From the NCBI RefSeq assembly GCF_022024275.1, contig NZ_CP091804.1, forward strand, positions 930,001-994,000: a stretch of DNA of 64,000 nt, in the 5' to 3' direction. The stretch comes from Sphingopyxis sp. BSN-002. GTDB taxonomy: Bacteria; Pseudomonadota; Alphaproteobacteria; Sphingomonadales; Sphingomonadaceae. This document shows positions 1 through 3,006 of the stretch, one piece after another (position 1 is the stretch's first letter; each line of letters starts with the position of its first letter). The notes under the pieces are model-generated. The model worked only from the letters and a program-made list of their open reading frames with translations. It ran no database searches and was not told where the DNA came from. The position numbers and the translations under genes were made by a program.

Positions 1-50
1 TCGTCGATTTCAACGACCCGAAGGTCGGCTGGGTGACGTCGGCGGGCTAG
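1..50 (+). CDS. 3' end of an unidentified gene (partial)
   Basis: Reading back from the TAG at 48-50 gives an open frame to the window edge, with the C-terminus VDFNDPKVGWVTSAG. The codon choice (G or C mostly in third position) matches the neighbouring genes. Fifteen residues are too few to name a family, so only the presence of a gene end is claimed. Confidence 0.5.
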   Translation, partial: VDFNDPKVGWVTSAG

Positions 51-119
51 CCCTCCGCCAATCTGTCACACGACTCCGCTAACAGGGGCGCGCCATCCCC
101 TGTTCGCAAGGAGTCTCCC

Positions 120-491
120 ATGAGCGAATTGGTACGCGAAATCGTCGAAGTGAACGCCGGCATCGAAGGCGACGAGGAAAACCCGCTGCTGGTCGTCGAT
201 GTCGAGGGGCTTGCCCCCACCGGCGGCTGGACCAGCGTCCGCCTCGAACCCCACACCTATATCGACGCGCCAGACGACGGCTTCCAGGACTTCGACCTCG
301 TCGGCGATCGTCCTCCCCAAATGTCTTCAGAGGGCGCCGCCACCGACGCCCTCACCGAGGTCGAGGCGGGCTACGAAGGTCCGCTCGAGGACTGGTGCAT
401 CGGCGTCCGCGTCCACGCGGTCGACAATATGTTCGAGGAAGAAGTCTTCGGCCCGTGGGACAGCGACGACGAAGAAAGCGAAGCAGCCTAA
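120..491 (+). CDS. Small acidic protein of unknown function
   Basis: This 123-residue protein is strongly acidic, with runs such as EGDEEN near residue 17 and a DSDDEESEAA tail. It has no signal peptide, membrane segment or cysteine motif that I can see, so it is probably a soluble cytoplasmic protein. The start at 120 follows an AAGGAG-type ribosome binding site (caaggagtctccc) at good spacing. It stands alone between the end of an upstream gene and an inverted repeat. I do not recognise the family and propose no function. The coding call rests on codon bias and the ribosome binding site. Confidence 0.75.
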   Translation: MSELVREIVEVNAGIEGDEENPLLVVDVEGLAPTGGWTSVRLEPHTYIDAPDDGFQDFDLVGDRPPQMSSEGAATDALTEVEAGYEGPLEDWCIGVRVHAVDNMFEEEVFGPWDSDDEESEAA

Positions 492-500
492 TCCTGTTAC

Positions 501-576
501 GTCATCCCGGCGAAGGCCGGGATCTCGCCGTAGCCGCATGACGCCAAGGTGAGATTCCGGCCTTCGCCGGAATGAC
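501..576. repeat. Paired inverted intergenic repeat (REP-like)
   Basis: Two arms of about 26 bases face each other: GTCATCCCGGCGAAGGCCGG reading inward at 502 and its near complement ending at 575. Each arm also carries the short CCGGCGAAGGCCGG self-complementary core. Such paired elements recur in sphingomonad intergenic regions. It could fold as one large hairpin at the end of the upstream transcript, but there is no T-run, so a repeat is a better name than a terminator. Confidence 0.75.
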
Positions 577-714
577 GGATGCTTCCCCTGCACTTCGCCG
601 GGCGGCAAAGCCGCTTTGCCGCCCGGCGACATTTTCTGCCCCGCGGCGGTCTGCCGCGAAATTTTAGACACCTTTCCCTTGCCAAGCGCGACATTTTGCA
701 TCATTGGCACCCCC

Positions 715-765
715 ATGCGCGGCAACGCCCTTCTTCTTCTGGGACTTACACGCCCTTGGGCGTGA
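715..765 (+). CDS. Leucine-rich leader peptide of leuA (putative)
   Basis: A 16-codon open frame encodes MRGNALLLLGLTRPWA. Five of the 16 codons are leucine, four of them in a row (730-741), and the frame ends 86 bases before leuA. This is the classic arrangement of an amino-acid-controlled attenuator. The last codons lie in a hairpin, CACGCCC with GGGCGTG (750-765). The 3' half of that hairpin, CCCTTGGGCG (753-762), can instead pair with CGCTCAAGGG (794-803) with one G-U pair, so two exclusive folds exist. The ribosome binding site is weak and I see no U-tract terminator, so the exact mechanism (transcriptional or translational) is open. The assignment is an inference from codon content and position. 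Confidence 0.65.
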   Translation: MRGNALLLLGLTRPWA

Positions 766-851
766 CACTGGCTGCGCGCTAGTCGCGGCCACCCGCTCAA
801 GGGTCCGATCGACGAAGCACCGCAACCGACAGCAGAAGAAGTTTTCCCACC

Positions 852-2516
852 ATGACCATGCTCCGCGACCCCTCGGTCAAGTACAGCGCCTTCCCGCAGG
901 TTCCCTTGACGAACCGCGAATGGCCCGGCCGCGTCACCACCCAGGCGCCGATCTGGCTCTCCACCGACATGCGCGACGGCAACCAGTCGCTGATCGACCC
1001 GATGGATGCCGAGAAAAAGGCGCGCTTCTTCGACCTGCTCGTCAAATGCGGGTTCAAGGAGATCGAGGTCGGATTCCCCAGCGCGGGCGCGACCGAATTC
1101 GACTTCATCTCGGGGCTCGTGAAGAACGGCCGCATCCCCGACGACGTCACGCCGCAGGTGCTGACGCAGAGCCGCGCCGACCTCATCCGCACCAGCTTCG
1201 ACAGCCTCGAAGGCGCGAAAACCGCGATCGTCCACGTCTATAACGCGGTCAGCCCCGCCTGGCGCAAGATCGTCTTCGGCATGGAGATGGACGAGATCAA
1301 GGGCATCGCGATCGAGGGCGCGAAGCAGCTCCGCGACAATGCCGCGCGCCTGCCCGGCACCGACTGGCGCTTCGAATACAGCCCCGAAACCTTCTCGACC
1401 GCCGAGCTCGATTTCAGCATCGCCTGCTGCGAGGCGGTGATGGATATTCTCCAGCCGACGACCGACAAGCCGATCATCCTCAACCTGCCCGCGACGGTCG
1501 AGGCCTCGACGGCGAACATCTACGCCGACCAGATCGAATATTTCTGCAAGAACTTGCCCAATCGCGACCGCGCGATCATCAGCTTGCACACGCACAACGA
1601 CCGCGGCACCGGCGTCGCGGCGGCCGAACTCGGCCTGCTCGCGGGCGCCGACCGCGTCGAGGGCTGCCTATTCGGCAATGGCGAGCGCACCGGCAACACC
1701 TGCCTCGTCACCATCGCGCTCAACATGTACACGCAGGGCGTCGACCCAGAGCTCGACTTCTCGAACATCGACGAGGTCATCCAGACGGTCGAATATTGCA
1801 ACAACCTGCCCGTCCACCCGCGCCACCCCTATGGCGGCGAGCTCGTCTACACCGCCTTTTCGGGCAGCCATCAGGACGCGATCAAGAAAGGCTTCGCCGC
1901 GCGCGAACGCCAGAATGACGAGCGCTGGGAAGTCCCCTATCTGCCCATCGACCCCGCCGACCTCGGCCGCAGCTATGAAGCGGTAATCCGCGTCAACAGC
2001 CAATCGGGCAAGGGCGGCGTCGCATGGGTGCTCGAACAGGACAAGGGCCTGAAACTGCCCAAAAAGATGCAGGCAAGCTTCAGCCATGTCGTGCAGGCGC
2101 TGGCCGACCAGACGAGCCGCGAACTCGGCGCCGAGGATATCTGGCACGCGTTCGAGGGCCAGTATCTGACCACCGAAGCCAAACGCTTCCAGCTCGTCGA
2201 CTGGTCGGAGACGCATTCGGGCGCCGACCGCATCTTCGCCGGCAAGCTCACCATCGACGGCATGCAGCGCAGCGTCAGCGGCCGCGGCAACGGCCTGATG
2301 TCGAGCGTCATCGCGGCCTTGAGCGAAAGCGGCGGCCCGGTGATGGACATCGTCGACTATAGCGAGCACGCGATCGGCCAGGGCAGCAATGTGCAGGCCG
2401 CGGCTTATGTCGAGTGCCGCACCGCGGACGGCAAAAGCCTGTTCGGATGCGGGCTCGATACCGACGTCGCGACAGCCAGCGTGCGGGCGATTTTGTCGGC
2501 AGCGAATGGGGCTTAA
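852..2516 (+). CDS. leuA: 2-isopropylmalate synthase
   Basis: This enzyme condenses acetyl-CoA with 2-oxoisovalerate, the first committed step of leucine synthesis. The 554-residue protein has the DRE-TIM aldolase barrel: the RDGNQ motif at 41-45, and HTHND at 246-250, which supplies two metal-binding histidines. The GNGERTGN loop follows about 25 residues later. A C-terminal regulatory domain of about 120 residues is present (from roughly residue 430). Length and sequence fit the long actinobacterial-type LeuA found in many sphingomonads rather than the shorter enterobacterial type. ATG at 852 is the first good start; MTMLRDPSVKY is a typical N-terminus. A leucine-rich leader peptide upstream suggests attenuation by leucine supply. 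It is a single gene; no leuB, leuC or leuD is nearby. Confidence 0.96.
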   Translation: MTMLRDPSVKYSAFPQVPLTNREWPGRVTTQAPIWLSTDMRDGNQSLIDPMDAEKKARFFDLLVKCGFKEIEVGFPSAGATEFDFISGLVKNGRIPDDVTPQVLTQSRADLIRTSFDSLEGAKTAIVHVYNAVSPAWRKIVFGMEMDEIKGIAIEGAKQLRDNAARLPGTDWRFEYSPETFSTAELDFSIACCEAVMDILQPTTDKPIILNLPATVEASTANIYADQIEYFCKNLPNRDRAIISLHTHNDRGTGVAAAELGLLAGADRVEGCLFGNGERTGNTCLVTIALNMYTQGVDPELDFSNIDEVIQTVEYCNNLPVHPRHPYGGELVYTAFSGSHQDAIKKGFAARERQNDERWEVPYLPIDPADLGRSYEAVIRVNSQSGKGGVAWVLEQDKGLKLPKKMQASFSHVVQALADQTSRELGAEDIWHAFEGQYLTTEAKRFQLVDWSETHSGADRIFAGKLTIDGMQRSVSGRGNGLMSSVIAALSESGGPVMDIVDYSEHAIGQGSNVQAAAYVECRTADGKSLFGCGLDTDVATASVRAILSAANGA

Positions 2517-2524
2517 AGGCTGGG

Positions 2525-2557
2525 CCTTCGACCAATCGCGCAGCGATTGGTCGAAGG
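2525..2557 (+). terminator. Perfect 15-bp hairpin downstream of leuA
   Basis: CCTTCGACCAATCGC pairs perfectly with GCGATTGGTCGAAGG across a three-base loop, starting 8 bases after the leuA stop. There is no T-run after it, so it may stop transcription weakly, protect the 3' end, or simply be a short repeat. Its position at the gene end favours a terminator-like role. Confidence 0.6.
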
Positions 2558-2609
2558 AACGTTAGCCCCGCACGATCCCCGGAACTAACCGGCACATATC
2601 CCCGCCCCC

Positions 2610-2850
2610 GGCAGCCACCACTGGACGCCGCGGCTCCAGCGCGAGTTTCTGGAGGCTTTCGCTACCAACGGGTCGGTGAAGATTTCGGCGGCGAAGGTTT
2701 GCATGTCGCCCGCCGCCGTCTATCAGCCGGACAGCGGCCCGAGGGCGCGGCGCTCCGGATCGGCTGCGCCGCGGCGCTGCTGATCGCGCGCCCGGCGACG
2801 GCTTACTACCCGCAAAACCACGGCCGGATGGCACCCGATCGGCGTCAACC
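2610..2850 (+). pseudogene. Remnant of a small helix-turn-helix protein gene
   Basis: In one frame, bases 2622-2726 read WTPRLQREFLEAFATNGSVK followed by ISAAKVCMSPAAVYQ. This resembles the N-terminus of a small HTH protein family common in sphingomonads (WTPxRQRxFLEALAxxGSV..AA..V.MS..xAY). After codon 2724-2726 the similarity continues in another frame as PEGAALRIGCAAALLIAR (from about 2738), where intact members have a GA-x-FR-x-AW-x-AAL stretch. A frame change and the loss of a few residues between these parts, plus no intact C-terminus, indicate a decayed gene. It lies between the leuA hairpin and the cspA promoter. The family resemblance is from memory and should be treated as tentative. 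Confidence 0.5.
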
Positions 2851-2879
2851 TTGACTTTTCAAGGAAAACCGCCCATATC
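2849..2879 (+). promoter_or_regulatory. Likely cspA promoter
   Basis: TTGACT at 2851-2856 is followed after 17 bases by CATATC at 2874-2879, a fair sigma-70-type pair. The -35 lies within an inverted repeat, CCTTGA-CTTT-TCAAGG (2849-2864). Transcription would start near 2886 and give a 5' leader of about 120 bases before cspA. Long leaders of this kind are typical of cold-shock genes. Confidence 0.5.
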
Positions 2880-3006
2880 CGGGAAGCTAACGTCGCATGC
2901 GACGGAATTTGACGGCCCCTTGGGGCAGACTCTTCCCTTCACACGCTACCAGCTCCGCCGGTGCTTTTGCCGGTGGATTCCCTGTTTTCGTGAAAGGAAA
3001 CACCCC

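Follow-up and report, generated by a model that had tools for sequence, protein, structure and literature searches.

A leucine-codon leader upstream of leuA in Sphingomonadaceae and its predicted pairing with the leuA Shine-Dalgarno region

Known amino-acid attenuators act for the most part on transcription, the classical leader-peptide examples being the leu and trp attenuators of E. coli. These share with the element described here a short open-reading frame containing control codons, mutually exclusive hairpins, and a stalled ribosome as the sensor. Attenuation at the level of translation is known from the erm resistance genes, in which a ribosome stalled on the leader frees a sequestered downstream ribosome-binding site, as is also proposed below; in erm the signal is an antibiotic, whereas here the sensing codons themselves would form the sequestering strand. 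The amino-acid leader families of Rfam, such as Leu_leader, belong to the same function class, and the Rfam matches to positions 1–3000 of the window (the whole 64,000-nucleotide stretch of DNA that was analysed) include no leader family at E values up to 5. The closest precedent, itself a prediction, is the LEU element described in 2005 by Seliverstov et al. upstream of leuA in Actinobacteria, which combines a leader ORF containing a run of leucine codons with a base stem between this codon run and the leuA Shine-Dalgarno box, the same pairing as is predicted here, and has alternative structures inside the base stem as well as a proposed pseudoknot (PMC1262725). Its authors favour a regulatory protein as the ligand and cite mutations of the Streptomyces leuA leader, which had some effect but one not consistent with classical attenuation (PMC1262725). 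Searches of an open-access library gave no recognisable account of such a leader in sphingomonads or other Alphaproteobacteria, and priority is uncertain, as subscription papers, including the 2004 survey of proteobacterial attenuators cited in PMC1262725, lay outside the search. Passages of PMC4833913, PMC4117421, PMC4046766 and PMC2965389 do not mention alphaproteobacterial leuA leaders, and PMC4046766 notes a leuA leader in Corynebacterium.

The original prediction for this locus was a 16-codon frame with five leucine codons, four of them consecutive, ending 86 bases before leuA, and direct reading of the window confirmed it (Table 1), the leader ending at 765 and leuA starting at 852. Among 435 ATG frames of 8–40 codons in the window, the leader ORF is the only one with at least five leucines in six codons, which makes a chance origin unlikely; conservation in relatives is the stronger argument. 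The fold of positions 715–880 is not unusually stable (z −1.66, with 8 of 200 shuffles equal or better), and stability of the whole leader was dropped as evidence because it is weak. The product of the downstream gene scores 776.6 bits against TIGR00970 (cut-off 697.4) and is 97% identical, over the best segment, to LeuA of Sphingopyxis sp. H115. A consensus scan of positions 480–900 found no promoter. TTGCCA, as in the weak candidate listed in Table 1, has its start at −36 relative to the leader ATG in 31 of 180 loci, and TGGACA lies at −35 to −39 in 43 of 180; if the candidate is used, the leader mRNA would have almost no 5′ UTR. The GC-rich hairpin within the loop of helix H2 has six of its pairs present in the centroid fold, and in relatives this loop varies in both length and content. 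Other repeats flank the locus. Positions 500–577 form an inverted repeat with 35-nt arms that are 86% complementary, and its core, CCGGCGAAGGCCGG, occurs five times in the window with one mismatch allowed, against 0.19 expected. A perfect 17-nt inverted repeat at 595–629, followed by CATTTTCTGC and located upstream of the leader, is possibly the terminator of the preceding gene, and a perfect 15-nt inverted repeat without a clear T run lies just past leuA at 2525–2557.

Table 1. Positions of the leuA leader elements and neighbouring features in the window
Feature	Position	Strand	Basis
Possible promoter, weak: TTGCCA at 679, 17 nt, CATTGG at 702	679..707	+	positional recurrence
Leader ORF, ATG at 715, stop TGA at 763–765, product MRGNALLLLGLTRPWA followed by stop	715..765	+	read directly; equivalent in 81/81 loci, 185 distinct regions
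Four consecutive Leu codons (CTT CTT CTT CTG), also predicted anti-Shine-Dalgarno strand of helix H0	730..741	+	MFE pairing, coupling tests
GGA (Gly) codon, CGA (Arg) in the other 184/185 distinct leaders	742..744	+	
Last Leu codon, CTT	745..747	+	CTT 177, CTA 8 of 185 leaders
Local hairpin H1, spanning the last codons of the leader ORF	749..764	+	P about 0.50 in window
5′ arm of long-range helix H2, CCCTTGGGCG	753..762	+	98.6% of cells paired (A2), 99.0% (A1)
GC-rich hairpin within the H2 loop (770–776 with 784–790)	770..790	+	sequence reading
3′ arm of H2, CGCTCAAGGG	794..803	+	covariation, arm variants
leuA Shine-Dalgarno region, GCAGAAGAAGTT, predicted 3′ strand of H0	830..841	+	MFE pairing
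leuA, long-form 2-isopropylmalate synthase, presumed regulated gene	852..2516	+	TIGR00970 match

The family of the window was taken as Sphingomonadaceae from its named relatives, and a first locus set was formed from the best 80 leuA relatives plus the window's own locus. An equivalent leader ORF precedes leuA in all 81, in line with the conservation among sphingomonads that had been expected for a genuine leader. Random variation of the leucine codons among related species had been regarded as evidence against the idea; the length of the leucine run does vary, so this objection applies to the run and not to its end. A survey of 119 genomes of the family with the pattern CGACTTAYNCGCCCYTNGG, allowing at most one mismatch, gave matches at 106 places in 102 genomes and in 76 of 89 genera, compared to eight places for the reversed pattern. 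In 101 of the 102 matching genomes, the core lies just upstream of leuA, and this holds over two distantly related forms of the gene. Fetching 96 of the matches placed the leuA start 68–144 nt past the leader stop in 95 (67 long-form, 28 short-form), the exception being L232, which has no leuA downstream. The remaining six matching genomes are covered by core-bearing leuA loci (L001, L094, L096, L098, L104 and L106). Four genomes (G418, G434, G478 and G483) have a second match, each with one mismatch. Three of the 28 short forms (L224, L233 and L241) pass the TIGR00973 cut-off and the rest are named by their DTTLRDGEQ start only.

The 17 family genomes without a pattern match were followed individually. 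Long leuA is present in three of them (E up to 1e-50), each preceded by a diverged leader that an RNA model built from the aligned leaders recovers at E 8.3e-6 or better. Of the other 14 together with the L232 genome, seven of 15 gave a match to short LeuA that falls under the curated cut-off and eight of 15 gave none at E up to 1e-30, while the same short LeuA model, as a positive control, matched in 14 of 14 genomes. Inspection by eye of four of those seven (L317, L318, L319 and L321) revealed no leader before the short leuA. These counts indicate that the element accompanies leuA of either form but that not every short leuA has a leader; the eight family genomes in which no leuA was detected also lack the element. 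Within this one family the same leader stands ahead of long-form leuA in 157 distinct regions and ahead of short-form leuA in 28 distinct regions, including L224, L225, L233 and L241. It seems that the leuA gene was replaced beneath a conserved leader, or that the leader moved. One locus (L049) combines a typical sphingomonad leuA with the leader core on a contig whose title is Arthrobacter sp. TPD3018, and the record may be mislabelled.

The predicted structure adds a feature that the original prediction missed and that is new here, as the four consecutive leucine codons are predicted to pair with the leuA Shine-Dalgarno region. In the minimum free energy (MFE) fold of the window, positions 730–737 pair with 841–834 and 739–741 with 832–830, and the 12 bases of the site region make 10.4 expected pairs with 730–747, or 0.87 per base. 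Several relatives show the same type of fold with other letters. Matching was measured as the duplex energy of a leader tract with its own ribosome-site region compared to the sites of other species. In a first set of 76 distinct loci, the cognate energy was −16.3 versus −14.4, with 0 of 5000 permutations as low, and in 78 representatives selected to differ by more than 40% in linker and site it was −17.06 versus −14.08 (sd 0.32), with 0 of 10,000 as low; since the leaders are related by descent, such permutation figures overstate independence and are to be taken as strong, not literal, evidence that the leucine tract and ribosome site are matched species by species. A control segment upstream of the leader showed no matching (−15.49 versus −15.39; 1184 of 3000 as low), and both leuA forms did (0 of 5000 for 63 long-form loci, 11 of 5000 for 15 short-form loci). 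Across the 78 loci, tract-site pairing peaks at −14 to −10 of leuA, at 0.42–0.48 compared to 0.21–0.30 in chimeras, and no canonical Shine-Dalgarno tetramer was found in 33 of the 78. Compared to synonymous versions of the same leader, native codons had a mean z of −0.39 on their own site and +0.29 on foreign sites (p = 2.8e-7). This codon-fit effect is small, a median of 34% of synonymous versions being as good and 14 of 78 leaders falling in the best tenth, and the window's own leader pairs no better than its synonymous versions (z +0.8).

The alternative hairpins of the original prediction can both form, the arms of H2 making 10 pairs, one of them G-U. H1 and H2 use a common arm and are hence mutually exclusive. 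In the model ensemble for the window, the two are about equal (0.50 and 0.48–0.49), whereas the mean probabilities in free RNA over 78 loci are 0.86 for H2 and 0.07 for H1, so the even balance of the window is not general. Covariation was scored in two alignments, A2 with 77 divergent sequences cut at the best complement of the H2 5′ arm, and A1 with 40 sequences cut at leuA and made without regard to pairing. On A2, 98.6% of 768 H2 cells are paired and 46 are double-change cells compared to 15.0 in shuffles, a result that alone leans towards H2 because the cut was chosen by complementarity; sliding the partner by 1–3 columns lowers pairing to 22–63%. Repetition on A1, free of that choice, gave 99.0% of 400 cells paired and 17 double-change cells against 3.8 (0 of 500 shuffles), although the double changes sit in two pairs only, a number that 289 of 500 shuffles equal or exceed. 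In 116 of 185 cases the locus's own downstream region contains a fully Watson-Crick 7-nt partner, compared to 0 of 185 when the region comes from a locus of a different arm type and 11 of 925 after shuffling. The arm variant CCCTTAG pairs with CTAAGGG in 71 of 79 cases, CCCTTGG goes with CCAAGGG or its G-U forms, and the rare variants CCCTTAA and CCCCTAG go with TTAAGGG (2/2) and CTAGGGG (1/1). Judged from these alignments, H2 clearly covaries, while H1 covaries more weakly and with thin support. On A2, 92.2% of 462 H1 cells are paired, with 28 double-change cells against 3.4 in shuffles, but these come from two pairs (366 of 500 shuffles reach two) and mainly from one, between the wobble base of the Thr/Ile codon and a base beyond the arm (GC 21, AU 19, GU 13, CG 4, unpaired 20), and sliding H1 by three columns leaves 22. 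Alternative pairing across relatives, also part of the original prediction, thus has clear compensatory changes for one helix and weaker ones for the other.

These features can be combined into a mechanism, and we consider that the element is probably a leucine-sensing translational attenuator of leuA whose control codons double as the anti-Shine-Dalgarno sequence. By default, H0 would form between the leucine codons and the leuA Shine-Dalgarno region, enclosing H2 or H1, and leuA would be poorly translated. With plentiful leucyl-tRNA, the leader would be translated quickly and the same closed fold would follow. A shortage of charged leucyl-tRNA would stall a ribosome on the leucine codons, where it would cover the anti-Shine-Dalgarno strand, and a ribosome stalled at the last CTT would also cover the start of the arm shared by H1 and H2; with that strand covered, the leuA site would be free and leuA translated. 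The leader ORF, the long-range helix, the tract-site matching and the position before leuA are supported by the sequence comparisons. From the anatomy, covariation and folding models, we infer translation of the leader, stalling, the direction and size of the response, and translation as the main level of control.

Switching was modelled by masking the ribosome footprint and recomputing the unpaired probability of the leuA site, using thermodynamic folds that do not include co-transcriptional folding. In silico, the default fold sequesters the downstream leuA ribosome site. Modelled accessibility for long leuA (157 loci) was 0.36 free, 0.53–0.56 with a ribosome stalled on leucine and 0.38 with a ribosome at the stop, and for short leuA (28 loci) 0.35, 0.40–0.47 and 0.35, respectively. 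With the ribosome stalled one leucine codon before the arginine, accessibility rose in 139 of 157 long-form and 25 of 28 short-form loci. A ribosome placed at the stop gave values slightly above free RNA in 101 of 157 and 14 of 28, and short-form loci gained only weakly from a stall at the last CTT (17 of 28). The stall gain was 0.137 in 78 cognates compared to 0.057 in 468 chimeras carrying a foreign site, and at 58 of 77 sites the cognate gain exceeded that of the chimeras (p = 2.5e-7). No conserved new partner stands out for the 3′ arm freed during the stall, its modelled mean pairing probability being 0.22 with upstream sequence, 0.28 with the linker and 0.13 with the site or leuA.

The same leader and the same stalling could instead act on transcription, with Rho or an atypical terminator ending transcripts between leader and leuA unless a stalled ribosome alters the fold, and the Shine-Dalgarno pairing being secondary or feeding polarity. 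Mutually exclusive H1 and H2 are what a transcription attenuator would have, and a terminator-like site precedes leuA in 16 of 185 loci, in some of them formed by the local hairpin and T-rich sequence after it. However, such a site was not found in the other 169, which sets these leaders apart from the E. coli leu and trp attenuators, a run of five T between leader stop and leuA occurs in only six of 185, and the search of positions 715–851 in the window found neither such a run nor an intrinsic terminator, as anticipated by the original prediction, which had noted the lack of a classic U-tract. An intrinsic terminator between leader and leuA was therefore rejected as a general feature. A switch in transcription would also leave unexplained why tract-site matching is highest at −14 to −10 of leuA, and we regard it as unlikely. 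The modelled opening by a leucine stall, the rarity of terminators, and the pairing of the leucine codons with the leuA ribosome-binding site favour translational attenuation, the level of control that had been suspected from the start.

The leader peptide itself is most constrained at its end. Across the 185 distinct regions, the number of leucines ranges from two to seven, with four or five in 153 and just two in six, while the end is nearly fixed as Leu (180/185), Arg encoded by CGA, and Leu encoded by CTT or CTA, followed by Thr/Ile/Met, Arg (CGC) and Pro. The parser demanded CTT or CTA as the last leucine codon and the core pattern itself served to find the later loci, so these counts lean towards the core. 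When loci were chosen by leuA alone, 97 of 97 had CTT as the last leucine codon and 96 of 97 had CGA as the arginine codon before it; in a mechanical set of 36 long non-overlapping ORFs of the window, CTT makes up 15% of leucine codons and CGA 11% of arginine codons. The window's own genome is the sole one of the 185 in which CGA is changed. Perhaps CGA is a slow codon ahead of the sensing leucine, its placement before CTT presumably meaning inosine wobble in the P site ahead of a leucine codon.

This constraint raises the alternative that the conserved LRL[TI]RP end is itself the stall signal, through a CGA codon ahead of CTT or a proline next to the stop, in which case stalling would not simply measure leucyl-tRNA and the RNA switch would be otherwise unchanged. 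The codon bias and the leaders with only two leucines agree with this reading, as do other leuA loci of the order and class, where a leucine-rich leader ORF was found by an amino-acid rule in 53 of 66 and the arginine before leucine is CGA in 32 of 34. Yet 19 of those 53 leaders have Gly-Leu instead, as does the window with its GGA, most leaders keep four or five leucines, and the conserved block also sits beside and in H1. We consider a stall signal of this kind improbable.

Tract-site matching extends beyond the family. With the core defined at codon level, as CGACTT or GGCCTTA in the leucine frame, and four plasmid loci added, matching was present in 26 loci whose core lies no more than 190 nt from leuA (0 of 5000) and fell short of significance in 18 loci with a more distant core (881 of 5000). 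Some of the far cores may belong to a second, upstream leader. Apparent tandem leucine-rich leaders, one far from and one near leuA, are present in three loci of the class (L129, L137 and L147). In three loci of other Proteobacteria (L168, L193 and L202), a leucine leader is followed by what appears by eye to be a GC-rich hairpin and a T run, a classical layout in contrast to that of the window. A search with the RNA model, which was built from A2, took no account of gene positions and gave matches in 21 of 192 genomes of the class (E ≤ 0.01), and all 20 matches examined have a leuA-type ORF 52–167 nt downstream of the core. For the 17 outside the family, this ORF passes the TIGR00973 cut-off for 2-isopropylmalate synthase, and the other three are leuA loci of the family already in the set. 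There was no sign of a multi-gene regulon, since 95 of 96 fetched pattern matches and all 20 examined model matches precede leuA.

Four actinobacterial loci (L082–L085) were compared to these leaders. The stem between leucine run and Shine-Dalgarno region is clear in L085, partial in L084 and absent from the MFE folds of L082 and L083; the folding programs used here predict no pseudoknots, such as the one proposed for the LEU element. The CGACTT core is absent from all four, and the sphingomonad RNA model gave no match in them at E up to 1. A common origin thus has no sequence support, and the LEU element is placed as working alike rather than as belonging to the same family. It also suggests a further alternative, in which a regulatory protein binds the element, as proposed for that analogue (PMC1262725), and the ORF is incidental. 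Such a site would account for the very high nucleotide conservation of the block, but not for a leucine frame that retains its start and stop throughout the parsed loci even where the stop has shifted (RP-stop or RPWA-stop), nor for the more variable leucine tract still being matched to its own ribosome site, and we give this explanation very little weight. That the arrangement is chance or a relic with no regulatory role, for which nothing speaks beyond the modest overall fold stability, is scarcely credible given its conservation, the covariation of H2, the tract-site matching and the leuA-linked distribution.

A broader history can be offered tentatively, and we hold it to be possible rather than probable. 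The Alphaproteobacteria might share an old common leuA leader in which the sensing leucine codons are the anti-Shine-Dalgarno strand and the CGA-CTT pair sharpens sensing, with leuA exchanged beneath it between distant forms and the same design arising separately in Actinobacteria. If this is true, the sensor and the lock would be one stretch of RNA. It appears that the target gene is locked by the same codons that would measure leucine. Our searches met this compact design in print solely as an actinobacterial prediction that did not settle how it acts. Most sampled genomes of a large family have the element before leuA, in either form of the gene, and it can be recognised in other families of the class. 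It provides a testable annotation for many genomes, and Sphingopyxis would be a tractable system in which to address the question of ribosome stalling.
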